A stretch of DNA of 64,000 nt from assembly GCF_964355755.1 (NCBI RefSeq), contig NC_092673.1, positions 14,947,001 through 15,011,000 on the forward strand. The letters are read 5' to 3'. The notes below the pieces were generated by a model. That model had not been told where the DNA came from. It was given only the letters and a program-made list of their open reading frames with translations, and searched no databases. Both the position numbers and the translations under genes were made by a program. Source of the DNA: Antedon mediterranea. Lineage: Eukaryota; Echinodermata; Crinoidea; Comatulida; Antedonidae. The stretch's first letter is position 1; each line of letters opens with the position of its first letter. Below, piece by piece: positions 5,181 through 32,355 of the stretch.

Positions 5181-5535
5181 ATAATGTTGGTTAAAGTTTA
5201 TTTTCGGTAATGTTACATTTTTGCCTGAGATTTTTAACTACTATATATATTTTATCGCTACAATACTGGTGAAAATATGAACAGTAATAATAGTTACTGG
5301 TTTCTTGTAATTCTACATACGGGGAACTAGCTCAGACGGTAGAGCGTTCGCTTAGCATATGAGAGGTACCGTGATCATGAATGCCCGGGTTCTCCAATAA
5401 CGTTGGTTAAAGTTTATTTCCGTTACTGTTACATTTTTTGAGATTTTTAACTACTGTATATATTTCATCGCAACAATACTGGTGACAATATGAACAGTAA
5501 CAAAATAGCTACTGGATTCGTGTAATTGTATAGAT

Positions 5536-5608
5536 GGGGAACTAGCTCAGATGGTAGAGCGCTCGCTTAGCATGTGAGAGGTACCGGGATCAATGCCCGG
5601 GTTCTCCA
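5536..5608 (+). tRNA. tRNA-Ala (AGC)
   Basis: Clean copy inside the ~3.9-kb duplicated block; its duplicate is 9432-9504. Confidence 0.92.
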
Positions 5609-5963
5609 ATAATGTTGGTTAAAGTTTATTTTCGGTACTGTCAAATTTTTTGAGATTTTAAACTACTGTATATATTTTATCACATCAATACTGGTGACAA
5701 TATGAAGATTAATAAAATATCTACTGGTTTCGTGCAATTGTATATATTGGGAACTAGCTCAGATGGTAGAGCGCTCACTTCGCATTTGAGAGGTACCGGG
5801 ATAAATGCCCGGGTTCTCCAATAATGTTGGTTAAAGTTTATTATCGTTACCGTTACATTTTTTTGATGAGATTTTTAACTAATGTATATATTTCATCGTA
5901 TTAATACTGGTGACAATATGAACAGTAACAAAATAGCTACAGTATTCGTGTAATTGTATAGAT

Positions 5964-6036
5964 GGGGAACTAGCTCAGATGGTAGAGCGCTCACTTTGCA
6001 TGTGAGAGGTACCAGGATCAATACCCGGGTTCTCCA
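5964..6036 (+). tRNA. tRNA-Ala (TGC), CCAGG T-stem variant
   Basis: Anticodon stem CTCAC/GTGAG is fully paired, but T stem CCAGG/CCCGG has an A-C mismatch and the loop is ATCAATA. Duplicate at 9860-9932. Confidence 0.65.
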
Positions 6037-7239
6037 ATAATGTTGGTTAAAGTTTATTACCGGTACTGTTACATTTTTTTGATGAGATTTTTAAATAATG
6101 TATATATTTCATCGTAATAATACTGGTGACAATATGAACAGTAACAAAATAGCTACTGGATTCGTGTAATTGTATAGATGGGGAACTAGCTCAGATGGTA
6201 GAGCGCTCGCTTAGCATGTTAGAGGTACCGGGATCAATGCCCGCGTTCTCCAATAATGTTGGTTAAAGTTTATTTTCGGTACTGTCAAATTTTTTGAGAT
6301 TTTAAACTACTGTATATATTTTATCGCATCAATACTGGTGACAATATGAAGATTAATAAAATATCTACTGGTTTCGTGCAATTGTATATATTGGGAACTA
6401 GCTCAGATGGTAGAGCGCTCACTTCGCATTTCAGACGTACCGTGATAAATGCCCGGGTTCTCCAATAATGTTGGTTAAAGTTTATTATCGTTACCGTTAC
6501 ATTTTTTTGATGAGATTTTTAACTAATGTATATATTTCATCGTAATAATACTGGTGACAATATGAACAGTAACAAAATAGCTACAGGATTCGTGTAATTG
6601 TATAGATGGGGAACTAGCTCAGATGGTAGAGCGCTCGCTTAGCATGTGAGATGTACCGGGTTCTCCAATAATGTTGGTTAAAGTTTATTTCCGGTACTGT
6701 AAAATTTTTTGAGATTTTAAACTACCGTATATATTTTATCGCATCAATACTGGTGACAATAATGAAGATTAATAAAATATCTACTGGTTTCGTGCAATTG
6801 TATATATTGGGAAGTAGCTCAGATGGTAGATCGCTCGCTTCGCATTTGAGAGGTACCGGGATCAATGCCCGGGTTCTCCAGTAATGTTGGTTAAAGTTTA
6901 TTATCGTTACCGTTACATTTTTTTGATGAGATTTTTAACTAATGTATTTATTTCATCGTAATAATACTGGTGACAATATGAACAGTAACAAAATAGCTAC
7001 TGGATTCGTGTAATTGTATAGATGGGGAACTAGCTCAGATTGTAGAGCGCTCACTTCGCATTTGAGAGGTACCGGGATAAATGCCCGGGTTCTCCAATAA
7101 TGTTGGTTAAAGTTTATTATCGTTACCGTTACATTTTTTTGATGAGATTTTTAACTAATGTATATATTTCATCGTCATAATACTGGTGACAATATGAACA
7201 GTAACAAAATAGCTACAGGATTCGTGTAATTGTATAGAT

Positions 7240-7312
7240 GGGGAACTAGCTCAGATGGTAGAGCGCTCGCTTTGCATGTGAGAGGTACCGGGATCAATGC
7301 CCGGGTTCTCCA
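7240..7312 (+). tRNA. tRNA-Ala (TGC)
   Basis: Clean copy; leader has ACAGGATTC. Its duplicate is 11136-11208. Confidence 0.92.
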
Positions 7313-7459
7313 ATAATGTTGGTTAAAGTTTATTACCGGTACTGTTACATTTTTTTTATGAGATTTTAAACTACTGTATATATTTTATCGCATCAATACT
7401 GGTGACAATATGAAGATTAATAAAATATCTACTGGTTTCGTGCCATTGTATACATATAT

Positions 7460-7532
7460 GGGGAACTAGCTCAGATGGTAGAGCGCTCGCTTTGCATGTG
7501 AGAGGTACCGTGATCAATGCCCGGGTTCTCCA
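7460..7532 (+). tRNA. tRNA-Ala (TGC), CCGTG class (representative)
   Basis: The 5' T-stem strand is CCGTG, giving a T-C mismatch with CCCGG. The leader is an unusual ATACATATAT. Two more copies start at 11555 and 13087. Confidence 0.7.
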
Positions 7533-7675
7533 ATAATGTTGGTTAAAGTTTATTACCGGTATTGTTACATTTTTTTGCTGAGATTTTTAACTAATGTATA
7601 TATTTCATTGTAATAATACTGGTTACAATATGAACAGTAACAAAATAGCTACTGGATTCGTGTAATTGTATAGAT

Positions 7676-7748
7676 GGGGAACTAGCTCAGATGGTAGAGC
7701 GCTCGCTTTGCATGTGAGAGGTACCGGGATCAATGCCGGGGTTCTCCA
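7676..7748 (+). tRNA. tRNA-Ala (TGC), T-stem G-G class (representative)
   Basis: The 3' T-stem strand is CCGGG instead of CCCGG, giving one G-G mismatch at 51-63. Everything else is consensus, so function is uncertain but possible. Other members start at 11771, 13303, 33421, 34713, 35344, 37278, 38124, 39202, 39833, 40263, 40893, 42827, 44550, 45396, 46242, 47732, 48162, 50082, 51803, 54162, 54793 and 56727. Units 38124 and 46242 read CCGAGG instead. Confidence 0.75.
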
Positions 7749-7924
7749 ATAATGTTGGTTAAAGTTTATTACCGGTACTGTTACATTTTTTTGATGAGAT
7801 TTTTAACTACTAAATATATTTTATCGTAATAATTTTTAACTAATGTATTTATTTCATCGTAATAATATTGGTGACAATATGAACAGTAACAAAATAGCTA
7901 CTGGATTCGTGTAATTGTATAGAT

Positions 7925-7997
7925 GGGGAACTAGCTCAGATGGTAGAGCGCTCGCTTTGCATGTGAGAGGTACCGGGATCAATGCCCGGGTTCTCCA
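7925..7997 (+). tRNA. tRNA-Ala (TGC)
   Basis: Clean copy. The spacer before it has a ~46-bp internal partial duplication (about 7797-7860). Duplicate: 12020-12092. Confidence 0.92.
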
Positions 7998-8572
7998 ATA
8001 ATGTTGGTTAAAGTTTATTTTCGGTAATGTTACATTTTTGCCTGAGATTTGTAACTACTATATATATTTTATCGCAACAATACTGGTGAAAATATGAACA
8101 GTAATAATAGTTACTGGTTTCTTGTAATTCTACATACGGGGAACTAGCTCAGACGGTAGAGCGTTCGCTTAGCATATGAGAGGTACCGTGATCATGAATG
8201 CCCGGGTTCTCCAATAACGTTGGTTAAAGTTTATTTCCGTTACTGTTACATTTTTTTGCTGAGATTTTTAACTAATGTATATATTTCATCGTAATAATAC
8301 TGGTGACAATATGAACAGTAACAAAATAGCTACTGGATTCGTGTAATTGTATAGATGGTGAACTAGCTCAGATTGTAGAGCGCTCACTTCGCATTTGAGA
8401 GGTACCGGGATAAATGCCCGGGTTCTCCAATAATGTTGGTTAAAGTTTATTATCGTTACCGTTACATTTTTTTGATGAGATTTTTAACTAATGTATATAT
8501 TTCATCGTCATAATACTGGTGACAATATGAACAGTAACAAAATAGCTACAGGATTCGTGTAATTGTATAGAT

Positions 8573-8645
8573 GGGGAACTAGCTCAGATGGTAGAGCGCT
8601 CGCTTTGCATGTGAGAGGTACCGGGATCAATGCCCGGGTTCTCCA
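8573..8645 (+). tRNA. tRNA-Ala (TGC)
   Basis: Clean copy just before the hybrid unit at 8789. Duplicate: 12668-12740. Confidence 0.92.
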
Positions 8646-8788
8646 ATAATGTTGGTTAAAGTTTATTACCGGTACTGTTACATTTTTTTTATGAGATTTT
8701 TAACTACTATATATATTTTATCGCAACAATACTGGTGACAATATGAAAAATAACAAAATAGCTACTGGATTCGTGTAATTGTATAGAT

Positions 8789-8861
8789 GGGGAACTAGCT
8801 CAGATGGTAGAGCGCTCGCTTAGCATGTGAGATGTACCGGGATAAATGCCCTGGTTCTCCA
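8789..8861 (+). pseudogene. Recombinant tRNA-Ala unit (AGC 5' half, CGC-class 3' half)
   Basis: The 5' part, through GTGAGATGTACCGGG, matches the 60-nt AGC deletion class. From ATAAATGCCCTGG onward it matches the unit at 4893, including the rare CCCTGG and the following GTTCTCCAGTAATG. The switch lies in the shared CCGGG. This is the breakpoint of the large duplication. The C56A change and T-stem mismatch suggest it is non-functional. Confidence 0.85.
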
Positions 8862-9431
8862 GTAATGTTGGTTAAAGTTTATTATCGTTACCGTTACATT
8901 TTTTTGATGAGATTTTTAACTAATGTATTTATTTCATCGTAATAATACTGGTGACAATATTAACAGTAACAAAATAGCTACTGGATTCGTGTAATTGTAT
9001 AGATGGGGAACTAGCTCAGAAGGTAGAGCGCTCGCTTTGCATGTGAGAGGTACGGGATCAATGCCCGGGTTCTCCAATAATGTTGGTTAAAGTTTATTTT
9101 CGGTAATGTTACATTTTTGCCTGAGATTTTTAACTACTATATATATTTTATCGCTACAATACTGGTGAAAATATGAACAGTAATAATAGTTACTGGTTTC
9201 TTGTAATTCTACATACGGGGAACTAGCTCAGACGGTAGAGCGTTCGCTTAGCATATGAGAGGTACCGTGATCATGAATGCCCGGGTTCTCCAATAACGTT
9301 GGTTAAAGTTTATTTCCGTTACTGTTACATTTTTTGAGATTTTTAACTACTGTATATATTTCATCGCAACAATACTGGTGACAATATGAACAGTAACAAA
9401 ATAGCTACTGGATTCGTGTAATTGTATAGAT

Positions 9432-9504
9432 GGGGAACTAGCTCAGATGGTAGAGCGCTCGCTTAGCATGTGAGAGGTACCGGGATCAATGCCCGGGTTC
9501 TCCA
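9432..9504 (+). tRNA. tRNA-Ala (AGC)
   Basis: Clean copy; duplicate partner of 5536-5608. Confidence 0.92.
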
Positions 9505-11135
9505 ATAATGTTGGTTAAAGTTTATTTTCGGTACTGTCAAATTTTTTGAGATTTTAAACTACTGTATATATTTTATCACATCAATACTGGTGACAATATG
9601 AAGATTAATAAAATATCTACTGGTTTCGTGCAATTGTATATATTGGGAACTAGCTCAGATGGTAGAGCGCTCACTTCGCATTTGAGAGGTACCGGGATAA
9701 ATGCCCGGGTTCTCCAATAATGTTGGTTAAAGTTTATTATCGTTACCGTTACATTTTTTTGATGAGATTTTTAACTAATGTATATATTTCATCGTATTAA
9801 TACTGGTGACAATATGAACAGTAACAAAATAGCTACAGTATTCGTGTAATTGTATAGATGGGGAACTAGCTCAGATGGTAGAGCGCTCACTTTGCATGTG
9901 AGAGGTACCAGGATCAATACCCGGGTTCTCCAATAATGTTGGTTAAAGTTTATTACCGGTACTGTTACATTTTTTTGATGAGATTTTTAAATAATGTATA
10001 TATTTCATCGTAATAATACTGGTGACAATATGAACAGTAACAAAATAGCTACTGGATTCGTGTAATTGTATAGATGGGGAACTAGCTCAGATGGTAGAGC
10101 GCTCGCTTAGCATGTTAGAGGTACCGGGATCAATGCCCGCGTTCTCCAATAATGTTGGTTAAAGTTTATTTTCGGTACTGTCAAATTTTTTGAGATTTTA
10201 AACTACTGTATATATTTTATCGCATCAATACTGGTGACAATATGAAGATTAATAAAATATCTACTGGTTTCGTGCAATTGTATATATTGGGAACTAGCTC
10301 AGATGGTAGAGCGCTCACTTCGCATTTCAGACGTACCGTGATAAATGCCCGGGTTCTCCAATAATGTTGGTTAAAGTTTATTATCGTTACCGTTACATTT
10401 TTTTGATGAGATTTTTAACTAATGTATATATTTCATCGTAATAATACTGGTGACAATATGAACAGTAACAAAATAGCTACAGGATTCGTGTAATTGTATA
10501 GATGGGGAACTAGCTCAGATGGTAGAGCGCTCGCTTAGCATGTGAGATGTACCGGGTTCTCCAATAATGTTGGTTAAAGTTTATTTCCGGTACTGTAAAA
10601 TTTTTTGAGATTTTAAACTACCGTATATATTTTATCGCATCAATACTGGTGACAATAATGAAGATTAATAAAATATCTACTGGTTTCGTGCAATTGTATA
10701 TATTGGGAAGTAGCTCAGATGGTAGATCGCTCGCTTCGCATTTGAGAGGTACCGGGATCAATGCCCGGGTTCTCCAGTAATGTTGGTTAAAGTTTATTAT
10801 CGTTACCGTTACATTTTTTTGATGAGATTTTTAACTAATGTATTTATTTCATCGTAATAATACTGGTGACAATATGAACAGTAACAAAATAGCTACTGGA
10901 TTCGTGTAATTGTATAGATGGGGAACTAGCTCAGATTGTAGAGCGCTCACTTCGCATTTGAGAGGTACCGGGATAAATGCCCGGGTTCTCCAATAATGTT
11001 GGTTAAAGTTTATTATCGTTACCGTTACATTTTTTTGATGAGATTTTTAACTAATGTATATATTTCATCGTCATAATACTGGTGACAATATGAACAGTAA
11101 CAAAATAGCTACAGGATTCGTGTAATTGTATAGAT

Positions 11136-11208
11136 GGGGAACTAGCTCAGATGGTAGAGCGCTCGCTTTGCATGTGAGAGGTACCGGGATCAATGCCCGG
11201 GTTCTCCA
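11136..11208 (+). tRNA. tRNA-Ala (TGC)
   Basis: Clean copy; duplicate partner of 7240-7312. It is followed by a 60-nt-class unit (11352) that the earlier block lacks. Confidence 0.92.
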
Positions 11209-12019
11209 ATAATGTTGGTTAAAGTTTATTACCGGTACTGTTACATTTTTTTTATGAGATTTTTAACTACTATATATATTTTATCGCAACAATACTGGTG
11301 ACAATATGAAAAATAACAAAATAGCTACTGGATTCGTGTAATTGTATAGATGGGGAACTAGCTCAGATGGTAGAGCGCTCGCTTAGCATGTGAGATGTAC
11401 CGGGTTCTCCAATAATGTTGATTAAAGTTTATTTCCGGTACTGTCAAATTTTTTGAGATTTTAAACTACTGTATATATTTTATCGCATCAATACTGGTGA
11501 CAATATGAAGATTAATAAAATATCTACTGGTTTCGTGCCATTGTATACATATATGGGGAACTAGCTCAGATGGTAGAGCGCTCGCTTTGCATGTGAGAGG
11601 TACCGTGATCAATGCCCGGGTTCTCCAATAATGTTGGTTAAAGTTTATTACCGGTATTGTTACATTTTTTTGCTGAGATTTTTAACTAATGTATATATTT
11701 CATTGTAATAATACTGGTTACAATATGAACAGTAACAAAATAGCTACTGGATTCGTGTAATTGTATAGATGGGGAACTAGCTCAGATGGTAGAGCGCTCG
11801 CTTTGCATGTGAGAGGTACCGGGATCAATGCCGGGGTTCTCCAATAATGTTGGTTAAAGTTTATTACCGGTACTGTTACATTTTTTTGATGAGATTTTTA
11901 ACTACTAAATATATTTTATCGTAATAATTTTTAACTAATGTATTTATTTCATCGTAATAATATTGGTGACAATATGAACAGTAACAAAATAGCTACTGGA
12001 TTCGTGTAATTGTATAGAT

Positions 12020-12092
12020 GGGGAACTAGCTCAGATGGTAGAGCGCTCGCTTTGCATGTGAGAGGTACCGGGATCAATGCCCGGGTTCTCCA
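12020..12092 (+). tRNA. tRNA-Ala (TGC)
   Basis: Clean copy; duplicate partner of 7925-7997, preceded by the same internally duplicated spacer. Confidence 0.92.
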
Positions 12093-12667
12093 ATAATGTT
12101 GGTTAAAGTTTATTTTCGGTAATGTTACATTTTTGCCTGAGATTTGTAACTACTATATATATTTTATCGCAACAATACTGGTGAAAATATGAACAGTAAT
12201 AATAGTTACTGGTTTCTTGTAATTCTACATACGGGGAACTAGCTCAGACGGTAGAGCGTTCGCTTAGCATATGAGAGGTACCGTGATCATGAATGCCCGG
12301 GTTCTCCAATAACGTTGGTTAAAGTTTATTTCCGTTACTGTTACATTTTTTTGCTGAGATTTTTAACTAATGTATATATTTCATCGTAATAATACTGGTG
12401 ACAATATGAACAGTAACAAAATAGCTACTGGATTCGTGTAATTGTATAGATGGTGAACTAGCTCAGATTGTAGAGCGCTCACTTCGCATTTGAGAGGTAC
12501 CGGGATAAATGCCCGGGTTCTCCAATAATGTTGGTTAAAGTTTATTATCGTTACCGTTACATTTTTTTGATGAGATTTTTAACTAATGTATATATTTCAT
12601 CGTCATAATACTGGTGACAATATGAACAGTAACAAAATAGCTACAGGATTCGTGTAATTGTATAGAT

Positions 12668-12740
12668 GGGGAACTAGCTCAGATGGTAGAGCGCTCGCTT
12701 TGCATGTGAGAGGTACCGGGATCAATGCCCGGGTTCTCCA
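12668..12740 (+). tRNA. tRNA-Ala (TGC)
   Basis: Clean copy; duplicate partner of 8573-8645. Confidence 0.92.
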
Positions 12741-13551
12741 ATAATGTTGGTTAAAGTTTATTACCGGTACTGTTACATTTTTTTTATGAGATTTTTAACT
12801 ACTATATATATTTTATCGCAACAATACTGGTGACAATATGAAAAATAACAAAATAGCTACTGGATTCGTGTAATTGTATAGATGGGGAACTAGCTCAGAT
12901 GGTAGAGCGCTCGCTTAGCATGTGAGATGTACCGGGTTCTCCAATAATGTTGGTTAAAGTTTATTTCCGGTACTGTCAAATTTTTTGAGATTTTAAACTA
13001 CTGTATATATTTTATCGCATCAATACTGGTGACAATATGAAGATTAATAAAATATCTACTGGTTTCGTGCAATTGTATACATATATGGGGAACTAGCTCA
13101 GATGGTAGAGCGCTCGCTTTGCATGTGAGAGGTACCGTGATCAATGCCCGGGTTCTCCAATAATGTTGGTTAAAGTTTATTACCGGTATTGTTACATTTT
13201 TTTGCTGAGATTTTTAACTAATGTATATATTTCATTGTAATAATACTGGTTACAATATGAACAGTAACAAAATAGCTACTGGATTCGTGTAATTGTATAG
13301 ATGGGGAACTAGCTCAGATGGTAGAGCGCTCGCTTTGCATGTTAGAGGTACCGGGATCAATGCCGGGGTTCTCCAATAATGTTGGTTAAAGTTTATTACC
13401 GGTACTGTTACATTTTTTTGATGAGATTTTTAACTACTAAATATATTTCATCGTAATAATTTTTAACTAATGTATTTATTTCATCGTAATAATACTGGTG
13501 ACAATATGAACAGTAACAAAATAGCTACTGGATTCGTGTAATTGTATAGAT

Positions 13552-13624
13552 GGGGAACTAGCTCAGATGGTAGAGCGCTCGCTTTGCATGTGAGAGGTAC
13601 CGGGATCAATGCCCGGGTTCTCCA
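13552..13624 (+). tRNA. tRNA-Ala (TGC)
   Basis: Clean copy, type A leader; the next unit (13765) is the 76-nt AGC class. Confidence 0.92.
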
Positions 13625-13979
13625 ATAATGTTGGTTAAAGTTTATTTTCGGTAATGTTACATTTTTGCCTGAGATTTTTAACTACTATATATATTTTATC
13701 GCAACAATACTGGTGAAAATATGAACAGTAATAATAGTTACTGGTTTCTTGTAATTCTACATACGGGGAACTAGCTCAGACGGTAGAGCGTTCGCTTAGC
13801 ATATGAGAGGTACCGTGATCATGAATGCCCGGGTTCTCCAATAACGTTGGTTAAAGTTTATTTCCGTTACTGTTACATTTTTTGAGATTTTTAACTACTG
13901 TATATATTTCATCGCAACAATACTGGTGACAATATGAACAGTAACAAAATAGCTACTGGATTCGTGTAATTGTATAGAT

Positions 13980-14052
13980 GGGGAACTAGCTCAGATGGTA
14001 GAGCGCTCGCTTAGCATGTGAGAGGTACCGGGATCAATGCCCGGGTTCTCCA
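13980..14052 (+). tRNA. tRNA-Ala (AGC)
   Basis: Clean copy near the array 1 end; followed by the CGC C56A unit at 14192. Confidence 0.92.
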
Positions 14053-14407
14053 ATAATGTTGGTTAAAGTTTATTTTCGGTACTGTCAAATTTTTTGAGAT
14101 TTTAAACTACTGTATATATTTTATCGCATCAATACTGGTGACAATATGAAGATTAATAAAATATCTACTGGTTTCGTGCAATTGTATATATTGGGAACTA
14201 GCTCAGATGGTAGAGCGCTCACTTCGCATTTGAGAGGTACCGGGATAAATGCCCGGGTTCTCCAATAATGTTGGTTAAAGTTTATTATCGTTACCGTTAC
14301 ATTTTTTTGATGAGATTTTTAACTAATGTATATATTTCATCGTAATAATACTGGTGACAATATGAACAGTAACAAAATAGCTACAGTATTCGTGTAATTG
14401 TATAGAT

Positions 14408-14480
14408 GGGGAACTAGCTCAGATGGTAGAGCGCTCGCTTTGCATGTGAGAGGTACCGGGATCAATGCCCGGGTTCTCCA
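14408..14480 (+). tRNA. tRNA-Ala (TGC), last gene before LINE copy 1
   Basis: Clean copy. Its downstream spacer runs to AACAAAATAGC and then meets the LINE T-run at 14598. Confidence 0.92.
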
Positions 14481-14607
14481 ATAATGTTGGTTAAAGTTTA
14501 TTACCGGTACTGTTACATTTTTTTGATGAGATTTTTAACTACTATATATATTTTATCGCAACAATACTGGTGACAATATGAAAAATAACAAAATAGCTTT
14601 TTTTTTT

Positions 14608-18364: not shown

Positions 18365-18465
18365 TTTTGAAGATTTTAAACTACTGTATATATTTTATCT
18401 CAAAAATACTGGTGACAATATGAAGATTAATAAAATAGTTACTGGTTTCGTGCAATTGTATATAT

Positions 18466-18538
18466 GGGGGAATAGCTCAGATGTTAGAGCGCTCGCTTAG
18501 CATGTGAGAGGTACCGGGATCAATGCCCGTGTTCTCCA
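18466..18538 (+). tRNA. tRNA-Ala (AGC), variant
   Basis: Acceptor GGGGGAA loses the pair at position 7, D loop is ATGTTAG, and T stem ends CCCGT (outer mismatch). Borderline gene or pseudogene. Confidence 0.6.
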
Positions 18539-18689
18539 ATAATGTTGGTTAAAGTTTATTTCCGGTATTGTTACATTCTTGGCTTAGATTTTTAACTACT
18601 AGGCCTATATATAATTTTATCGCAAATATACTGGTGACAATATGAAGATTAATCAAATATCTACTGGTTTTGTGCAGTATTGTATATAT

Positions 18690-18762
18690 GGGGAACTAGC
18701 TCAGATGGTAGAGCGCTCGCTTAGCATGTGAGAGGTACCGGGATCAATGCTCAGGTTCTCCA
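18690..18762 (+). tRNA. tRNA-Ala (AGC)
   Basis: Acceptor, D and anticodon arms are consensus. The T-arm 3' strand is CTCAG instead of CCCGG, giving a T-stem mismatch. Type B leader. Confidence 0.7.
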
Positions 18763-18804
18763 ATAATGTTGGTTAAAGTTTATTTCCGGTACTGTTACAT
18801 TTTT

Positions 18805-19693
18805 CGCGCCGCGGCTCTAGCCAGCTATGTCCCAGGAGGACACATTCATTAATAAGCTGTTTCATAGCGGTAGCTTTAGTATCTAAGGCTGACAGTTTTG
18901 TGAATTTGGAAACTCGACTATGATTTATAGGTAGCTGCTGGACCCAAAAAACGTCTGGGAGAAGAGAGTCTATATGAAAGCCTTGCTGATAATACAGTAT
19001 TATTGAGATGTAGACGGAAATCTGTGAAATCTTGTTCAATAAATAATAACTTCGTTTTTGCTGTCAACCAGGCCGGTATATAATAAGTCACTGTCAAACA
19101 ATCATTCGATAATGGTCAAAACTTTATTTTGGCTCTGTCAACATAAAGGGATGTATTTACAATGACTTTCTTTTGACTGTCAATCTAGGCCAATGTTATA
19201 ATAATACGCCGTCAGATATTAAATCATTGAAACAGTCCTGGTAAATTTTTTTTTGGTTATCAGATGCCGTGGGGGGCTCAATCAATTATCGTCAGAAGGT
19301 GAAAAATCAGTCTAGGTAGCAGCAGCAGATTATTAGTATAGGAACGCCTGCTCCATTAATTAATCCAGAAAAAGGTTTGTACATTATTTATTTGTTTATT
19401 AGCCTTCTCCTAACACAATTATATTTTCTTTAAAAAAAGGTTTTATAAGTGGTTTCAACATTTATGATAGTAATGTCACAGTTCTGTGTCTGGACGCAAG
19501 TTCATAGACCTACTAGTTATATTATTCATATTAACTGATACTTACTCTTCATTTACCGTAAAGTTCAGTTTTAATGAAATATATAATATAAATTGGCTTC
19601 GTAACAATTAATTAGTGTTGAAAAGGTTAGTTTTTTTGTGATAGGTGAAAATGACATGTAACTTCGTAATTAATTTATTTTTTTTTGTATAAA
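18805..19693. other. Unassigned AT-rich sequence
   Basis: No recognised gene. A minus-strand frame at 18773-19039 encodes ...LPINHSRVSKFTKLSALDTKATAMKQL..., which looks protein-like but matches no family I can name and overlaps array spacer at its 3' end; it could be a decayed transposon fragment. Two loosely related copies of a CTGTCAA...AGGCC...TATAATAA segment lie near 19060 and 19178, suggesting an old ~120-bp duplication. Confidence 0.5.
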
Positions 19694-20599: not shown

Positions 20600-21716
20600 A
20601 TCATTAGGACTAGAAATTTGGCTTATCAATCAAATAAATACTTTCGTTCAAAATGAAACTCCAACCTCTCTAATCAAAAGATTGAACTCGAAAACGGACC
20701 GTTTTTTTTAATTGGGTATGTTGAAACATTTCAATATTCATTTAAAAAAGTACATTAATTGTGGTATTGATCAGTGGCTATAGAGGCGTAAAAACCCTCA
20801 GTCAATATCATGTAAAATGCACTGTGGAAAGGTCATTATTAAGACTGCAAAATTGGGCTTATCAACAAATAAATACTTTCGTTCAAAATATAAAATCAAG
20901 GCTGAAAAATTGGGCTTATCAACAACAAAATATTTTATTATTAGACGCGATAACATCAAGGATAATCAGTATAATAATTATTAATATAGCCACTGTTACT
21001 AGTTTTATTCTACATGCTAAAGTAAATAAAAATCCACTAGAAAACAAACAAGTCTGAATGTTATGCTTATTAGCCATGTTATGTTTGTTACTGTAGGCCT
21101 ATGATTGTTTGCAATGTCCACATATTATTTCCATGGGCATATCCATAGTGTATCACTCACAAAAAAAGACGTGTGAGGTTCTTTCTTTAGATTTTGAAAA
21201 ATGATTTGTGTTACAGGTTGACATGAGTCAAATGCTCCAGATATCGGCTAACGCCATGGGACCCTTGGCTTATCAATGAATAATAAATACAGTACTACTT
21301 TCGTTCAATTGAAATCGGAATCTGACCGTTTCATTAAATTGGGTGTGATTAGGCCTAAACATATAATAATCTATTAAAAAGGTACAATAAAAACAAATGC
21401 ATCAGAGGCGTAAAGAACCCACGGTCAATATCATGTAAAATTTATATGGTATAAGCACTGTGGAAGGGGTCATTATTATTAAACTGGAAATTCGGCTTAT
21501 CAACAAATATATCTTTCGTTTAAAATGTAAAATAAGACTGCAAAATTGGGCTTATCAACAAATAAATACTTTCGTTCAAAATGTAAATAAGACTGCACAA
21601 TTGGGCTTATCAACAAATAAAATACTTTTTTTTTCAAAATGTAAAATTAAGACTGGAAAATTGGGCTTATAAACAAATAAATACTTTTTTTCAAAATGTA
21701 AGAAAACATTTTTTAA
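20600..21716 (+). repeat. 53-bp minirepeats within a ~640-bp diverged tandem repeat
   Basis: The minirepeat core is TTGGGCTTATCAACAAATAA followed by ATACTTTCGTTCAAAATGTAA. Copies lie near 20606, 20838, 20889, 21264, 21477, 21533, 21589 and 21645. The intervening sequence (ACCGTTT...AATTGGGT...GAGGCGTAAA...ACCC...GTCAATATCATGTAAAA) occurs after about 20680 and again after about 21315. A third, more decayed copy begins near 21885. Minirepeat number therefore varies between copies of the larger unit. Frames here (20761-21057, 21460-21672) are repeat translations. Confidence 0.8.
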
Positions 21717-22444: not shown

Positions 22445-22539
22445 AGATTTTAAACTACTGTATGTATTTGATCGTAACAATACTGGTGACAATATGAAGA
22501 TTAATAAAATATCTACTGGTTTCGTGCAATTGTATAGAA

Positions 22540-22612
22540 GGGGAAATAGCTCAGATGGTAGAGCGCTCGCTTTGCATGTGAGAGGTACCGGGAACAATGC
22601 CCGGGTTCTCTA
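22540..22612 (+). tRNA. tRNA-Ala (TGC) variant, first unit of array 2
   Basis: Acceptor GGGGAAA/GTTCTCT has mismatches at pairs 7 and 1, and the T loop is AACAATG. Its duplicate is 23828-23900. Likely a pseudogene. Confidence 0.65.
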
Positions 22613-23397
22613 ATAATGTTGGTTAAAGGTTATTTCCGGTTTTGTTACATTTCTTGCTGAGATTTTTAACTACTATATATATTGTATCGCAAAAAAACTG
22701 GTGACAATATGAAGATTAATAAAATATCTACTGGTTTCGTGCAATTGTATATATTGGGAGCTAGCTCAGATGGTAGAGCGCGCGCTTCGCATTTGAGAGG
22801 TACCGGGATCAATGCCCGGGTTCTCCAATAATGTTGGTTAAAGTTTATTATCGGTACCGTTACATTTTTTTGATGAGATTTTTAACTAATGTATATATTT
22901 CATCGTAATAATACTGGTGACAATAAGAACAGTAACAAAATAGCTACTGGATTCGTGTAAGTGTATAGATTGGGAACTAGCTCAGATGGGAGAGCGCTCG
23001 CTTTGCATGTGAGAGGTACCAGGATCAATGCCCGGGTTCGCCAATAATGTTGGTTAAAGTTTATTTCCGGTAATGTTACATTTTTGCCTCAGATTTTTAA
23101 CTACTATATATATTTTATCGCAACAATACTGGTGAAAATATGAACAGTAATAAAATAGTTACTGGTTTCTTGTAATTCTACATACGGGGAACTAGCTCAG
23201 ACGGTAGAGCGTTCGCTTAGCATATGAGAGGTACCGTGATGAATGCCCGGGTTCTCCAATAACGTTGGTTAAACTTTATTTCCGGTACTGTTACATTTTT
23301 TGAGATTTTAAACTACTGTATATATTTTATCTCAAAAATACTGGTGACAATATGAAGATTAATAAAATATCTACTGGTTTCGTGCAATTGTATATAT

Positions 23398-23470
23398 GGG
23401 GAACTAGCTCAGATGGTAGAGCGCTCGCTTCGCATGTGAGAGGTACCGGGATCAATGCCCGGGTTCTCCA
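23398..23470 (+). tRNA. tRNA-Ala (CGC)
   Basis: Clean copy with GTGAG anticodon stem and normal T loop; reads GCG. Type B leader, unusual for clean CGC genes. Confidence 0.9.
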
Positions 23471-24686
23471 ATAATATATTGGTTAAAGTTTATTATCGGT
23501 ACCGTTACATTTTTTTGATGAGATTTTTAACTAATGTATATATTTCATCGTAATAATACTGGTGACAATATGAACAGTAATAAAATAGTTACTGGTTTCT
23601 TGTAATTCTACATACGTGGAACTAGCTCACACGGTAGAGCGCTCGCTTAGCATGTGAGAGGTACCGGGATCAATGCTCAGGTTCTCCAATAATGTTGGTT
23701 AAAGTTTATTTCCGGTACTGTTACATTTTTTTAGATTTTAAACTACTGTATGTATTTGATCGTAACAATACTGGTGACAATATGAAGATTAATAAAATAT
23801 CTACTGGTTTCGTGCAATTGTATAGAAGGGGAAATAGCTCAGATGGTAGAGTGCTCACTTTGCATGTGAGAGGTACCGGGATCAATGCCCGGGTTCTCTA
23901 ATAATGTTGGTTAAAGGTTATTTCCGGTTTTGTTACATTTCTTGCTGAGATTTTTAACTACTATATATATTGTATCGCAAAAAAACTGGTGACAATATGA
24001 AGATTAATAAAATATCTACTGGTTTCGTGCAATTGTATATATTGGGAGCTAGCTCAGATGGTAGAGCGCGCGCTTCGCATTTGAGAGGTACCGGGATCAA
24101 TGCACGGGTTCTCCAATAATGTTGGTTAAAGTTTATTACCGGTACTGTTACATTTTTTTTATGAGATTTTTAACTAATGTATATATTTCATCGCAACAAA
24201 ACTGGTGACAATATGAACAGTAACAAAATAGCTACTGGATTCGTGTAAGTGTATAGATGGGGAACTAGCTCAGATGGGAGAGCGCTCGCTTTGCATGTGA
24301 GAGGTACCAGGATCAATGCCCGGGTTCACCAATAATGTTGATTAAAGTTTATTTCCGGTAATGTTACATTTTTGCCTCAGATTTTTAACTACTATATATA
24401 TTTTATCGCAACAATACTGGTGGAAATATGAACAGTAATAAAATAGTTACTGGTTTCTTGTAATTCTACATACGGGGAACTAGCTCAGACTGTAGAGCGT
24501 TCGCTTAGCATGTGAGAGGTACCGTGATCAATGCCCGGGTTCTCCAATAACGTTGGTTAAAGTTTATTTCCCGGTACCGTTACATTTTTTGAGATTTTAA
24601 ACTACTGTATATATTTTATCTCAAAAATACTGGTGACAATATGAAGATTAATAAAATAGTTACTGGTTTCGTGCAATTGTATATAT

Positions 24687-24759
24687 GGGGAAATAGCTCA
24701 GATGTTAGAGCGCTCGCTTCGCATGTGAGAGGTACCGGGATCAATGCCCGGGTTCTCCA
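24687..24759 (+). tRNA. tRNA-Ala (CGC), variant
   Basis: Duplicate partner of 23398, with acceptor GGGGAAA (pair 7 lost) and D loop ATGTTAG. Confidence 0.7.
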
Positions 24760-25121
24760 ATAATATATTGGTTAAAGTTTATTATCGGTACCGTTACATT
24801 TTTTTGATGAGATTTTTAACTAATGTATATATTTCATCGTAATAATACTGGTGACAATATGAACAGTAATAAAATAGTTACTGGTTTCTTGTAATTCTAC
24901 ATACGTGGAACTAGCTCACACGGTAGAGCGCTCGCTTAGCATGTGAGAGGTACGGGGAACAATGCCCGTGTTCTCCAATAATGTTGGTTAAAGTTTATTT
25001 CCGGTATTGTTACATTCTTGGCTTAGATTTTTAACTACTATATATATTTTATCACAACAATACTGGTGACAATATGAAGATTAATCAAATATCTTCTGGT
25101 TTTGTGCAGTATTGTATATAT

Positions 25122-25198
25122 GGGAAACTAGCTCAGATGGTAGAGCGCTCGCTTAGCATGCATGTGAGAGGTACCGGGATCAATGCTCAGGTTCTCCA
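25122..25198 (+). pseudogene. 77-nt AGC unit with CATG duplication
   Basis: The anticodon region reads TTAGCATGCATGTGAG: a 4-nt duplication of CATG enlarges the loop. T stem ends CTCAG. Acceptor GGGAAAC. Confidence 0.75.
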
Positions 25199-25337
25199 AT
25201 AATGTTGGTTAAAGTTTATTTCCGGTACTGTTACATTTTTTTAGATGTTAAACTACTGTATGTATTTGATCGTAACAATACTGGTGACAATATGAAGATT
25301 AATAAAATATCTACTGGTTTCGTGCAATTGTATATAT

Positions 25338-25410
25338 GGGGAAGTAGCTCAGATGGTAGAGCGCTCGCTTTGCATGTGAGAGGTACCGGGATCAATGCCC
25401 GGGTTCTCCA
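25338..25410 (+). tRNA. tRNA-Ala (TGC), variant
   Basis: Acceptor GGGGAAG gives a G-G at the innermost acceptor pair; the rest is consensus. Type B leader. Confidence 0.72.
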
Positions 25411-25768
25411 ATAATGTTGGTTAAAGTTTATTTCCGGTATTGTTACATTTCTTGCTGAGATTTCTAACTACTATATATATTTTATCGCAAAAAAACTGGT
25501 GACAATATGAACAGTAACAAAATAGCTACTGGATTCGTGTAATTGTATAGATGTGGAACTAGCTCAGATGGTAGAGCACTCGCTTCGCATTTGAGAGGTA
25601 CCGGGATCAATGCCCGAGTTCTCCAATAATGTTGGTTAAAGTTTATTATCGGTACCGTTACATTTTTTTGTTGAGATTTTTAACTAATGTATATATCTCA
25701 TCGTAATAATACTGGTGACAATATGAACAGTAAGAAAATAGCTACTGGATTCGTGTGATTGTATAGAT

Positions 25769-25841
25769 GGGGAACTAGCTCAGATGGTAGAGCGCTCGCT
25801 TAGCATGTGAGAGGTACCGGGATCAATGCCCGGGTTCTCCA
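25769..25841 (+). tRNA. tRNA-Ala (AGC)
   Basis: Clean copy; leader differs by GTGTGATTG for GTGTAATTG. Confidence 0.92.
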
Positions 25842-25980
25842 ATAATGTTGGTTAAAGTTTATTTCCGGTACTGTCACATTTTTGGACATTTTAAGCTACT
25901 GTATATATTTTATCGCGACAATACTGGTGACAATATGAAGATTAATAAAATATCTACTGGTTTCGTGCAATTGTAACTAT

Positions 25981-26053
25981 GGGGAACTAGCTCAGATGGT
26001 AGAGCGGTCGTTTCGCATGTGAGAGGTACCGGGATAAATGCCCGAGTTCGCCA
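25981..26053 (+). pseudogene. CGC unit with G3-G70 (representative of 3)
   Basis: The acceptor end is TTCGCCA, so U70 becomes G and the alanine identity pair is lost; T loop is ATAAATG. Related units at 27694-27767 and 28125-28198 are 74 nt, carry TGC and have an extra G in the T stem. Confidence 0.75.
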
Positions 26054-26411
26054 ATAATGTTGGTAAAAGTTTATTATCGGTCCGTTACATTTTTTTGATG
26101 AGATTTTTAACTAATGTATATATTTCATCGTAATAATACTTGTGACAATATGAACAGTAACAAAATAGCTACTGGATTCGTGTAATTGTATAGATGGGGA
26201 ACTAGCTCAGGTGGTAGAGCGCTCACTTCGCATTTGAGAGGTACCGGGATAAATGCCCGGGTTCTCCAATAATATTGGTTAAAGTTTATTATCGTTACCG
26301 TTACATTTTTTTGATGAGATTTTTAACTAATGTATATATTTCATCGTCATAATACTGGTGACAATATGAACAGTAACAAAATAGCTACAGGATTCGTGTA
26401 ATTGTATAGAT

Positions 26412-26484
26412 GGGGAACTAGCTCAGATGGTAGAGCGCTCGCTTTGCATGTGAGAGGTACCGGGATCAATGCCCGGGTTCTCCA
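26412..26484 (+). tRNA. tRNA-Ala (TGC)
   Basis: Clean copy; leader has ACAGGATTC, as at 7240. Confidence 0.92.
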
Positions 26485-26627
26485 ATAATGTTGGTTAAAG
26501 TTTATTACCGGTACTGTTATATTTATTTTATGAGATTTTTAACTACTATATATATTTTATCGCATCAATACTGGTGACAATATGAAGATTAATAAAATAT
26601 CTACTGGTTTCGTGCAATTGTATATAT

Positions 26628-26700
26628 GGGGAACTAGCTCAGATGGTAGAGCGCTCGCCTTGCATGTGAGAGGTACCGGGATCAATGCCCGGGTTCTCCA
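26628..26700 (+). tRNA. tRNA-Ala (TGC)
   Basis: Loop reads CTTGCAT (C32), otherwise consensus. Type B leader. Confidence 0.88.
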
Positions 26701-26843
26701 ATAATGTTGGTTAAAGTTTATTACCGGTACTGTTACATTTTTTTGGTGAGATTTTTAACTAATGTATATATTTCATTGTAATAATACTGGTTACAATATA
26801 AACAGTAACAAAAAAGCTACTGGATTCGTGTAATTGTATAGAT

Positions 26844-26916
26844 GGGGAACTAGCTCAGATGGTAGAGCGCTCGCTTTGCATGTGAGAGGTACCGGGATCA
26901 ATGCCCGGGTTCTCCA
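26844..26916 (+). tRNA. tRNA-Ala (TGC)
   Basis: Clean copy; followed by CAGTAATG, the 3' flank usually seen after CGC C56A units. Confidence 0.92.
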
Positions 26917-27275
26917 GTAATGTTGGTTAAAGTTTATTATCGTTACCGTTACATTTTTTTGATGAGATTTTTAACTATTGTATTTATTTCATCGTAATAA
27001 TACTGGTGACAATATGAACAGTAACAAAATAGCTACTGGATTCGTGTAATTGTATAGATGGGGAACTAGCTCAGATGGTAGAGCGCTCACTTCGCATTTG
27101 AGAGGTACCGGGATAAATGCCCGGGTTCTCCAATAATATTGGTTAAAGTTTATTATCGTTACCGTTACATTTTTTTGATGAGATTTTTAACTAATGTATA
27201 TATTTCATCGTCATAATACTGGTGAAAATATGAACAGTAACAAAATAGCTACAGGATTCGTGTAATTGTATAGAT

Positions 27276-27348
27276 GGGGAACTAGCTCAGATGGTAGAGC
27301 GCTCGCTTTGCATGTGAGAGGTACCGGGATCAATGCCCGGGTTCTCCA
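27276..27348 (+). tRNA. tRNA-Ala (TGC)
   Basis: Clean copy, followed by a 60-nt deletion-class unit. Confidence 0.92.
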
Positions 27349-27909
27349 ATAATGTTGGTTAAAGTTTATTACCGGTACTGTTACATTTTTTTTTATGAGA
27401 TTTTTAACTACTATATATATTTTATCGCAACAATACTGGTGACAATATGAAAAATAACAAAAAAGCTACTGGATTCGTGTAATTGTTTAGATGGGGAACT
27501 AGCTCAGATGGTAGAGCGCTCGCTTAGCATGTGAGATGTACCGGGTTCTCCAATAATGTTGGTTAAAGTTTATTTCCGGTACTGTCAAATTTTTTGAGAT
27601 TTTAAACTATACTGTATATATTTTATCGCATCAATACTGGTGACAATATGAAGATTAATAAAATATCTACTGGTTTCGTGCAATTGTAACTATGGGGAAC
27701 TAGCTCAGATGGTAGAGCGGTCGTTTTGCATGTGAGAGGTACCGGGGATAAATGCCCGAGTTCGCCAATAATGTTGGTAAAAGTTTATTATCGGTCCGTT
27801 ACATTTTTTTGATGAGATTTTTAACTAATGTATATATTTCATCGTAATAATACTGGTGACAATATGAACAGTAACAAAATAGCTACTGGATTTGTGTAAT
27901 TGTATAGAT

Positions 27910-27982
27910 GGGGAACTAGCTCCGATGGTAGAGCGCTCGCTTTGCATGTGGGAGGTACCTGGATCAATGCCCGGGTTCTCCA
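27910..27982 (+). tRNA. tRNA-Ala (TGC), variant
   Basis: D arm CTCCGATGG and GGGAGGTACC in the anticodon-variable region. Its near-copy at 28341-28413 lies exactly 431 bp on; that copy also has TTTTCCA at the acceptor end. Confidence 0.65.
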
Positions 27983-28465
27983 ATAATGTTGGTTAAAGTT
28001 TATTTCCGGTATTGTTACATTTCTTGCTGAGATTTTTAACTACTATATATATTTTATCGCATCAATACTGGTGACAATATGAAGATTAATAAAATATCTA
28101 CTGGTTTCGTGCAATTGTAACTATGGGGAACTAGCTCAGATGGTAGAGCGGTCGTTTTGCATGTGAGAGGTACCGGGGATAAATGCCCGAGTTCGCCAAT
28201 AATGTTGGTAAAAGTTTATTATCGGTCCGTTACATTTTTTTGATGAGATTTTTAACTAATGTATATATTTCATCGTAATAATACTGGTGACAATATGAAC
28301 AGTAACAAAATAGCTACTGGATTTGTGTAATTGTATAGATGGGGAACTAGCTCCGATGGTAGAGCGCTCGCTTTGCATGTGGGAGGTACCGGGATCAATG
28401 CCCGGGTTTTCCAATAATGTTGGTTAAAGTTTATTTCCGGTACTGGAAAATTGTTTGAGATTTTC

Positions 28466-28526
28466 CAGATGGTAGAGCGCTCGCTTTGCATGTGAGAGGT
28501 ACCGCGATCAATGCCCGGGTTCTCCA
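28466..28526 (+). pseudogene. 5'-truncated tRNA-Ala (TGC)
   Basis: Begins at CAGATGG in the D arm, fused directly to spacer sequence ending GAGATTTTC. The acceptor 5' strand and start of the A box are missing. The next ~100 bp is a spacer-spacer fusion lacking a gene. Confidence 0.85.
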
Positions 28527-28743
28527 ATAATGTTGGTTAAAGTTTATTTATATTGTTACATTTCTTGCTGAGGTTTTTAACTACTATATATATTTTATCT
28601 CAAAAATACTGGTGACAATATGAACTGTCACATTTTTTGGATGAGATTTTTAACTACTATATATATTTTATCGCAACAATACTGGTGACAATATGAACAG
28701 TAACAAAATAGCTACTGGATTCGTGTACAGTAATTGTATAGAT

Positions 28744-28816
28744 GGGGAACTAGCTCAGATGGTAGAGCACTCGCTTAGCATGTGAGAGGTACCGGGATCA
28801 ATGCCCGGGTTCTCCA
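28744..28816 (+). tRNA. tRNA-Ala (AGC)
   Basis: Consensus except A at position 26 (GAGCACTCGC). Its leader carries the 5-bp TACAGTA insertion at 28726-28732. Confidence 0.85.
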
Positions 28817-29385
28817 GTTATGTTGGTTAAAGTTTATTATCGTTACCGTTACATTTTTTTGATGAGATTTTTAACTAATGTATATATTTCATCGTAATAA
28901 TACTGGTGACAATATGAACAGTAACAAAATAGCTACTGGATTCGTGTAATTGTATAGATGGGAAACTAGCTCATATGGTAGAGCGCTCGCTTTGCATGTG
29001 AGAGGTACCGGGATCAATGACCGGGTTCTCCAATAATGTTGGTTAAAGTTTATTTCCGGTAATGTTACATTTTTGCCTGAGATTTTTAACTACTATATAT
29101 ATTTTATCGCAACAATACTGGTGAAAATATGAAAAGTAATAAATAGTTACTGGTTTCTTGTAATTGTACATACGGGGAACTAGCTCAGACGGTAGGGCGT
29201 TCGCTTAGCATATGAGAGGTACCGTGATCAATGCCCGGGTTCTCCAATAACGTTGGTTAAAGTTTATTTCCGGTACTGTTACATTTTTTGAGATTTTAAA
29301 CTACTGTATATATTTCATTGCAACAATACTGGTGACAATATGAACAGCAAAAAAATAGCTCCTGGATTCGTGTAATTGTATAGAT

Positions 29386-29458
29386 GGGGAACTAGCTCAG
29401 ATGGTAGAGCGCTCGCTTCGCATGTGAGAGGTACCGGGATCAATGCCCGGGTTCTCCA
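29386..29458 (+). tRNA. tRNA-Ala (CGC)
   Basis: Clean copy; 3' flank is AATATG, without the usual AAT repeat. That short flank marks this CGC family through the rest of the array. Confidence 0.92.
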
Positions 29459-30663
29459 ATATGTTGGTTAAAGTTTATTATCGGTACCGTTACATTTTTT
29501 TGATGAGATTTTTAAATAATGTATATATTTCATCGTAATAATACTGGTGACAATATGAACAGTAATAAAATAGTTACTGGTTTCTTGTAATTCTACATAC
29601 GGGGAACTAGCTCAGATGGTAGAGCGCTCGCTTAGCATATGTGAGAGGTACCGGGATCAATGCCCGTGTTCTCCAATAATGTTGGTTAAAGTTTATTTCC
29701 GGTATTGTTACATTTTTTTGATGAGATTTAACTACTAAATATATTTTATCGCAAAAATACTGGTGACAATATGAACAGTAACAAAATAGCTACTGGATTC
29801 GTGTAATTGTATAGATGTGGAACTAGCTCAGATGGTAGAGCGCTCGCTTAGCACGTGAGAGGTACCGGGATCAATGCCCGGGTTCTCCAATAATGTTGGT
29901 AAAAGTTTATTATCGGTACCGTTACATTTTTTTGATGAGATTTTTAACTAATGTATATATTTTATCGCATCAATGCTGGTGACAATATGAAGATTAATAA
30001 AATATCTACTGGATTCGTGTAATTGTATAGATGGGGAACTAGCTCAGATGGTAGAGCGCTAACTTCGCATTTGAGAGGTACCGGGATAAATGCCCGGGTT
30101 CTCCAATAATGTTGGTTAAAGTTTATTTTCGTTATCGTTACATTTTTTTGATGAGATTTTTAACTAATGTATATATTTCATCGTAATAATACTGGTGACA
30201 ATATGAACAGTAACAAAATAGCTACAGGATTCGTGTAATTGTATAGATAGGGAACTAGCTCAGATGGTAGAGCGCTCGCTTTGCATGTGAGAGGTACCGA
30301 GATAAATGCCCGGGTTCTCCAATAATGTTGGTTAAAGTTTATTATCGTTACCGTTACATTTTTTTGATGAGATTTTTAACTAATGTATATATTTTATCGC
30401 ATCAATACTGGTGACAATATGAAGATTAATAAAATATCTACTGGATTCGTGTAATTGTATAGATGGGGAACTAGCTCAGATGGTAGAGCGCTCGCTTAGC
30501 ATGTGAGATAAACCGGGTTCTCCAATAATGTTGGTTAAAGTTTATTTCCGGTACTGTCAAATTTTTTGAGATTTTAAACTACTGTATATATTTTATCGCA
30601 TCAATACTGGTGACAATATGAAGATTAATAAAATATCTACTGGTTTCGTGCATTTGTATATAT

Positions 30664-30736
30664 GGGGAACTAGCTCAGATGGTAGAGCGCTCGCTTTGCA
30701 TGTGAGAGGTACCGGGATCAATGCCCGGGTTCTCCA
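30664..30736 (+). tRNA. tRNA-Ala (TGC)
   Basis: Clean copy with type B leader (GTGCATTTG). Confidence 0.92.
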
Positions 30737-31725
30737 ATAATGTTGGTTAAAGTTTATTACCGGTATTGTTACATTTTTGCCTGAGATTTTTAACTACTAT
30801 ATATATTTTATCGCAACAATACTGGTGAAAATATGAACAGTAATAAAATAGTTACTGGTTTTTTGTAATTCTACATACGGGGAACTAGCTCAGACGGTAG
30901 AGCGTTCGCTTAGCATATGAGAGGTACCGTGATCATGAATGCCCGGGTTCTCCAATAACGTTGGTTAAAGTTTATTTCCGTTACTGTTACATTTTTTGAG
31001 ATTTTTAACTACTGTATATATATTTCATCGCAACAATACTGGTGACAATATGAACAGTAACAAAATAGCTACTGGATTCGTGTAATTGTATAGATGGTGA
31101 ACTAGCTCAGATGGTAGAGCGCTCGCTTCGCATGTGAGAGGTACCGGGATCAATGCCCGGGTTCTCCAATAATGTGTTCGGTACTGTCAAATTTTTTGAG
31201 ATTTTAAACTACTGTATATATTTTATCGCATCAATACTGGTGACAATATGAACAGTAACAAAATAGCTACTGGATTCGTGTAATTGTATAGATGGGGAAC
31301 TAGCTCAGATGGTAGAGCGCTCGCTTCGCATTTGAGAGGTACCGGGATCAATGCCCGGGTTCTCCAGTAATGTTGGTTAAAGTTTATTATCGTTACCGTT
31401 ACATTTTTTTGATGAGATTTTTAACTAATGTATTTATTTCATCGTAATAATACTGGTGACAATATGAACAGTAACAAAATAGCTACTGGATTCGTGTAAT
31501 TGTATAGATGGGGAACTAGCTCAGATGGTAGAGCGCTCACTTCGCATTTGAGAGGTACCGGGATAAATGCCCGGGTTCTCCAATAATATTGGTTAAAGTT
31601 TATTATCGTTACCGTTACATTTTTTTGATGAGATTTTTAACTAATGTATATATTTCATCGTCATAATACTGGTGACAATATGAACAGTAACAAAATAGCT
31701 ACAGGATTCGTGTAATTGTATAGAT

Positions 31726-31798
31726 GGGGAACTAGCTCAGATGGTAGAGCGCTCGCTTTGCATGTGAGAGGTACCGGGATCAATGCCCGGGTTCTCCA
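31726..31798 (+). tRNA. tRNA-Ala (TGC)
   Basis: Clean copy between a CGC C56A unit and a 60-nt unit, the same order as at 27060-27552. Confidence 0.92.
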
Positions 31799-32139
31799 AT
31801 AATGTTGGTTAAAGTTTATTACCGGTACTGTTACATTTTTTTATGAGATTTTTAACTACTATATATATTTTATCGCAACAATACTGGTGACAATATGAAA
31901 AATAACAAAATAGCTACTGGATTCGTGTAATTGTATAGATGGGGAACTAGCTCAGATGGTAGAGCGCTCGCTTAGCATGTGAGATGTACCGGGTTCTCCA
32001 ATAATGTTGGTTAAAGTTTATTTCCGGTACTGTCAATTTTTTTGAGATTTTAAACTACTGTATATATTTTATCGCATCAATACTGGTGACAATATGAAGA
32101 TTAATAAAATGTCTACTGGTTTCGTGCAATTGTATATAT

Positions 32140-32212: not shown

Positions 32213-32355
32213 ATAGTGTTGGTTAAAGTTTATTACCGGTACTGTTACATTTTTTTGCTGAGATTTTTAACTAAGGTATATATTTCATTGTAATAATACT
32301 GGTTACAATATGAACAGTAACAAAATAGCTACTGGATTCGTGTAATTGTATAGGT

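Follow-up and report, generated by a model that had tools for sequence, protein, structure and literature searches.

Transposons that target the dinucleotide TA duplicate it on insertion, and their excision leaves a few bases of the element ends between two TAs. Such excision scars are usually regarded as local curiosities.

Several described systems resemble the motif analyzed here, in which the four bases GGCC stand between two TAs (TAGGCCTA). Footprints of Tc1/mariner elements are described as 2–4 bp left behind (PMC7913693). For Sleeping Beauty the excision footprint is given as TAC(A/T)GTA, i.e. TACAGTA or TACTGTA (PMC3432063), and the likeness to the present case is twofold: the TA is duplicated on either side of what would be a few element-end bases, and the Sleeping Beauty word itself was gained in our window (at 28726) and is in excess in the sampled genome. 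Unlike the three-base CAG/CTG described for Sleeping Beauty, the spacer here is GGCC, which is four bases long, self-complementary and gives one product. Stowaway elements of Triticeae are reported to leave 1–4 bp remnants of their inverted-repeat ends inside the TA duplication, as inferred from empty sites (PMC1925063). The evidence presented below is of the same kind, empty sites pointing to an end remnant within a TA duplication; the Stowaway remnants described there are, however, of several different types and come from a few gene loci, whereas here one invariant scar is found in more than 100,000 places.

Two further groups were considered and rejected. The ends of the ATon elements of Aedes aegypti, which were once classed as TA-duplicating MITEs and are described as lacking a known autonomous partner, share ATAGGCC (PMC3422177). 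Like these ends, the present motif has GGCC after TA; the described ATon empty sites are AT, whereas here they are TA without an A/T rule outside, the outer bases being G/C (at 52065), C/T (18600), G/A (1439) and T/C (L031:9386). ISL2EU and other PHIS groups likewise cut and paste into short targets, but the target duplications listed for them are AT, TWA, ANT, CWG, TNA or, for Spy, none (PMC4482050); with TA as the empty site and TA duplicated, the motif does not show the AT or TWA duplication described for ISL2EU and PIF-Harbinger. In the literature searched, which was judged mostly by titles and abstract openings, TAGGCCTA was not found described as a scar, a footprint or an over-represented word.

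The tRNA-Ala array and its TA-bounded gains

The window, i.e. the whole 64,000-nucleotide stretch that was analyzed, corresponds to C4:14947001-15011000 of a 354-Mb assembly of 18 contigs, 11 of which are 22–41 Mb long. It contains an array of 250 tandem units of ~215 bp apiece, each with one tRNA-Ala or tRNA-Ala-like gene; ARAGORN called 137 tRNAs in the window, including three tRNA-Val. Non-array DNA interrupts the array twice, at 14599-18378 and at 18806-22452. The features discussed below are the following:

1407..1414, no strand: TAGGCCTA, inherited with the repeat family of the 1439 site (similar flanks at L031:9463 and L040:5481)
1439..1446, no strand: TAGGCCTA, gain within a high-copy repeat, many near-identical copies of which carry it
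2327..14598, plus strand: tRNA-Ala array, first block (its share of the 250 units of ~215 bp)
7451..7456, no strand: TACATA, 4-bp gain in units 7369, 11464 and 12996; ambiguous, inside a TA run
18379..18805, plus strand: two isolated array units, with the focal gain in the second
18600..18607, no strand: TAGGCCTA, focal gain; unit starting at 18594, GGCC enclosed by the duplicated TA
21094..21101, no strand: TAGGCCTA, without a paralogue in the window, not polarised
21350..21357, no strand: TAGGCCTA, gain relative to the diverged internal repeat at 20723
22453..63151, plus strand: tRNA-Ala array, main block
25039..25040, no strand: TA of the empty site in the closest paralogue (unit 25033)
28726..28732, no strand: TACAGTA, 5-bp gain at a TA, matching the published Sleeping Beauty footprint
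52065..52072, no strand: TAGGCCTA, sister gain in a shortened tRNA-like unit (51932) that ARAGORN did not call

The array ends at an identical unit position at 14537-15118 and at 63090-64000, and the non-array DNA beyond both ends is 98% alike, save for 329 bp present in the second copy alone. At 16363-17410 the interrupting DNA carries tRNA-Val genes in a short tandem run (three by ARAGORN), which adjoins a reverse transcriptase frame (RVT_1) on the minus strand. This reverse transcriptase found no match among viral contigs; used as an alignment it found 16 loci in genome contigs of other collections. Among 120 listed of its 769 relatives, the few source names that are informative point to an invertebrate metagenome and a coral. 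TAGGCCTA occurs in 2 of 19 reverse transcriptase loci from other collections, one apiece, which is too few to speak about other species. The second interruption holds an inverted-repeat element at 19694-20054, whose arms start near AGGCCCA and finish near TGGGCCT.

At the place of the focal TAGGCCTA, the closest paralogous unit reads AACTACTATATATA, and alignment of unit 18594 to it gives +6 (GGCCTA at the TA), followed by a separate +1 A a few bases on. When all 250 units were compared by their first 14 bases, TAGGCCTA was present at this position once and exact AACTACTATATATA 46 times; the remaining units carry other empty forms, many of them with TG there. The original prediction, which had read the site as a gain of TAGGCCTA at a TA, is thus borne out by the closest paralogue and by the 249 of 250 units without the motif. 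It had also claimed that two such events occurred independently, and the other one was recovered at 52065, where exactly GGCCTA is added at a TA in a unit of a shortened, tRNA-like subfamily; different hosts and flanks support the independence of the two gains. The 52065 site is the cleaner event, with one filled and 17 exact empty copies in the window and one filled and 18 empty copies in a whole-genome search with its flanks.

The insertion at 1439 is missing from two other sampled copies of its repeat. Its flanking pattern has 542 matches in the genome; 73 of the first 100 listed are empty and 27 carry TAGGCCTA, and when 0–8 bases were allowed between the flanks no other insert length appeared among the 100 of 542 matches listed. 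Furthermore, a search with the 291-bp piece of the repeat (1330-1620) yielded 2174 genome candidates, and the 40 that were scored comprise the window's own copy and 39 others of ~100% identity. The amplification of this repeat thus appears to be very recent, and since these 39 other copies are ~100% identical, the gain at 1439 was probably made once and then copied along with a young subfamily. The motif at 1407 was assigned to inheritance because other copies of the family share TAGGCCTA there. At 21350 the gap relative to 20723 is exactly 6; the two copies are ~73% alike, and 20723 has GA where TA is expected. That the change is a gain and not a deletion, as had been proposed, agrees with the predominance of empty copies at 18600 (249/250), 52065 (18/19) and 1439 (73/100 listed).

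A listing of the insertions in the array, which had been suggested at the outset, returned the two TAGGCCTA gains, TACAGTA at 28726 (one copy against 138 with the empty form CGTGTAATTG) and other indels: two sites (25155 and 59344) show small tandem duplications, 38983 carries three inserted bases, and further differences are shared by subfamilies. The TACATA of three related array units may be a change within the TA run; as a genome-wide class it was rejected, with 268 TACATA/TATGTA against 310 expected in the sampled stretches.

Abundance and age of the motif in the genome

All six AGGCCT of the window lie within TAGGCCTA. Six TAGGCCTA compare with 0.78 expected, and 0 of 100 dinucleotide shuffles reached this number, in line with the earlier argument against chance. 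In the whole genome (354 Mb), 128,596 copies of TAGGCCTA were counted, compared with 1,587 of the reversed word; TTGGCCAA, which has the same composition, occurs 6,554 times. The motif is palindromic, and forward and reverse counts therefore describe the same sites. Its density is ~1 per 2.8 kb, ~36-fold above the second-order Markov expectation (scaled up from 200 kb); within the 200 kb of sampled stretches the excess is 33-fold. One scar type is thus ~36 times commoner across a whole animal genome than composition predicts, and each scar means 6 added base pairs, a new palindrome and a new TA.

The excess is bound to the flanking TAs. In 16 sampled 10-kb stretches (160 kb) TA-GGCC-TA was found 54 times, where a second-order Markov chain predicts 1.7; in the seven other two-base frames GGCC was found 13 times versus ~14 expected. 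A further 40 kb, sampled after the hypothesis had been fixed, gave 12 versus 0.35 for TA-GGCC-TA and 7 versus 3.6 for the other frames, four of the seven in one frame. CAG/CTG between TAs behaved similarly, with 164 versus 42.9 in the 160 kb (other frames near 1; the tandem repeat of L036 contributes to this count) and 25 versus 9 in the later 40 kb. From the genome count together with the TA-bounded enrichment it follows that the focal gain is one case of a very large genome-wide class.

Spacer classes were compared in 19 stretches (190 kb), excluding L036, which carries a TACAGTA tandem repeat. GGCC ranked first among the 133 four-base spacers observed between TAs (66 vs 1.9). Among 32 three-base classes the first was CAG (TACAGTA/TACTGTA, 158 vs 49.3, 3.2-fold), followed by GCC (TAGGCTA/TAGCCTA, 44 vs 16.8 expected) and then CCG (TACCGTA/TACGGTA, 42 vs 16.2 expected, 2.6-fold). 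The CAG and CCG excesses are similar in kind to that of GGCC, weaker and modest; CAG versus CTG and CCG versus CGG are reverse complements, and orientation within each pair provides no test. The GCC class may be decayed or nibbled GGCC, and no GCC gain was seen between the repeat copies that were compared.

The 54 sites of the 160 kb have for the most part different flanks, a few repeats excepted, and G is favoured immediately outside the TA (40/108 flanks). Within 300 bp, 24 sites had a GGCC neighbour versus 11 expected, more than in any of 300 random placements; at 30 and 100 bp the clustering stayed within the maximum of the random placements, and GGCC-CAG proximity was within chance. Some clustered TAGGCCTA copies overlap in steps of 6 bp. 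Furthermore, TAGGCCTAGGCCTA occurs 3,596 times in the genome versus 2 for its reversed word, an excess that is compatible with elements having re-inserted at a TA left by an earlier scar. A large inverted repeat at L020:1350-2750 is dense in TAGGCCTA, TAGCTA and TAGTAG-like words, as though scars had been set on scars.

Tandem arrays and repeats act as traps in which scar events can be counted. Comparison of repeat copies over 240 kb yielded 144 distinct indels of 3–12 bp, 121 of them non-tandem. Six of the 20 non-tandem 5-bp indels are TA-bounded. Each of these six is CAG or CCG, and five come from L044, L046 and L049, in two locus pairs that stem from the transposase search and are not a random choice. 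Among 12 non-tandem 6-bp indels, three are TA-bounded, including two GGCC gains (window 1439 and L031:9386). Two further GGCC gains, in L020 and L052, stand in tandem context, and five other TA-bounded indels of 6, 7 or 9 bp occurred once each.

Judged by such comparisons, the scar-making process looks recent. The two copies of one element differ by 14 substitutions in 839 bp and by one GGCC gain (tandem context). Four CAG/CCG differences accompany 92 substitutions between L046 and L049, and one difference accompanies 86 between L044 and L048, the substitution counts of these two pairs being lowered by the gap scoring; in all three comparisons gain and loss are indistinguishable copy by copy. 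From the exact copies in 160 kb and their one-mismatch neighbours (73 vs 40.8 expected), a rough mean scar divergence of ~8% is obtained.

A probable excision footprint and the resident elements

We consider it fairly probable that a TA-targeting cut-and-paste DNA transposon, whose existence we infer from the scar, left TAGGCCTA at 18600 as its excision footprint. The mechanism would be that of the Tc1/mariner/pogo group. An element with the ends TA-GGCC...GGCC-TA would insert at a TA and thereby duplicate it; the transposase would then cut four nucleotides inside each end, leaving 3' overhangs of GGCC, and these self-complementary ends would anneal without mismatch and be ligated, so that TA-GGCC-TA would invariably result. 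A single invariant scar would be expected because GGCC pairs fully with itself; in CAG and CCG overhangs the outer bases would pair around a mismatch. The GGCC scar would thus predict how the ends of a still unseen transposon read.

The gains have the length of such footprints, with 4 bp for GGCC and 3 bp for CAG and CCG, and the empty sites read TA where the filled ones read TA...TA, the GA at 20723 being the exception. Overhang annealing is preferred over blunt joining because the latter would make TACAGCTGTA a class of its own, and this word was found 0 times versus 0.3 expected by composition. The product of a two-nucleotide cut, TAGGTA/TACCTA, was found 106 times versus 111 expected (TAGGTA by itself 48 versus 59).

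Elements with fitting ends are resident for the two weaker spacers. A CCG...CGG element of 846–856 bp is present in two copies (L035:2940-3785 and L052:5880-6735), which begin TA-CCG and end CGG-TA; its inverted repeat covers 35 positions including the TA, with three mismatches, and the flanks outside the TA differ between the copies. It is probably non-autonomous, because the longest frame (in the one copy examined) has 127 codons. For the CAG type, two pogo-type copies, L056 (C1:22456000-22459500) and L057 (C11:22015400-22018900), are 99.7% identical over 3.1 kb. The right end, which is the one that the stretch covers, reads CTG-TA, and the match runs two bases beyond it. Each copy has a DDE_1 frame of 331 codons uninterrupted by stops, a sign of recent activity, and in both of them two double TAGGCCTA scars face each other 140 bp apart. 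The spacer is therefore identical to the end of a resident element for CCG (both ends) and for CAG (one pogo-type end, CTG-TA).

For GGCC, despite a far stronger scar signal than for the other two spacers, no clear element with TA-GGCC ends was present in the 247 kb scanned (0.07% of the genome), and TA-flanked inverted-repeat scans of the window and the sampled stretches gave no clear TA-GG element. Three TAGGCC...GGCCTA pairs with matching interiors in the 247 kb were rejected as a source; all lie inside one large inverted repeat, L020. Looser TAGG...CCTA pairs were discarded as well: among the best 8 of 12, five lie in L020, one in L042 is of low complexity, and one common to L056 and L057 consists of the facing double scars.

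Several points speak against the footprint reading. The scar count implies at least as many excisions. Known-transposase matches are few (DDE_1 47 and DDE_3 8, both lower bounds); the 0 matches to mariner Transposase_1 carry no weight, since the control was silent as well. Excision should also leave imprecise variants, and these are scarce (TAGGCTA/TAGCCTA, 44 vs 17) and could be decay. Furthermore, as the L020 and L052 gains suggest, the motif can apparently also grow by tandem duplication in TAGGCC-rich DNA. Where a population is large and outbred, selection may remove the insertions, and the 6-bp scars may nonetheless become fixed by drift. A bolder version, which we regard as rather doubtful, assigns the commonest scar of this genome to a group of transposons whose ends are self-complementary GGCC and which would leave almost only scars. 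Their insertions would hardly ever stay, either because the elements hit and run or because they are removed before the body forms; the octamer would then have been seeded at ~1 per 2.8 kb by an element that is invisible to sequence surveys.

Alternative readings

The most serious competitor, although an unlikely one, is a repair signature: a nuclease or a domesticated transposase would make a staggered break specifically at TA, filling-in would duplicate the TA, and the same GGCC would be added with no transposon resident at any stage. The missing clear GGCC-ended element in 247 kb would suit this reading, as would a scar far commoner than the counted transposase genes. An invariant four-base spacer should, however, need a template, and for the similarly built CAG and CCG scars there are resident TA elements whose ends fit (one end and both ends, respectively).

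Alternatively, one or more repeat families could carry TAGGCCTA and have spread it by amplification. This holds for part of the copies, since 1407 and 1439 lie inside a repeat with many near-identical copies and a few other sampled sites share flanks (L038, L035/L052). As a general account it is improbable and was ruled out by the flanks, which are mostly different among the 54 sites of the 160 kb; moreover, the gains occur in unrelated hosts, and at the two array sites 1/19 and 1/250 copies are filled.

Telomerase-like seeding, in which each 3' end of a broken TA would receive telomeric GG and the two would be joined head to head as TAGG-CCTA, would account for the palindromic form and for the GG after TA. 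It should produce a graded series, yet in 200 kb TAGGGCCCTA was found 0 times, TAGGTA 48 versus 59 and TAGGGTTA 2 versus 3, and only TAGGCCCTA exceeds its expectation (4 vs 0.4). With CAG and CCG unexplained in addition, we regard it as very improbable.

Programmed elimination has still less to recommend it. Germ-line elements would be cut from body cells and the assembly would show the somatic scars, which would agree with the ubiquity of the scars and with the lack of a clear source element in the sampled part of the assembly; elements of the CAG and CCG types nevertheless exist in that same assembly. Finally, chance, replication slippage or an assembly artefact, to which the copies overlapping in 6-bp steps might point, is hardly credible and is ruled out by the ~36-fold excess in the genome count, along with the 0 of 100 shuffles and the exact +6 in differing flanks.
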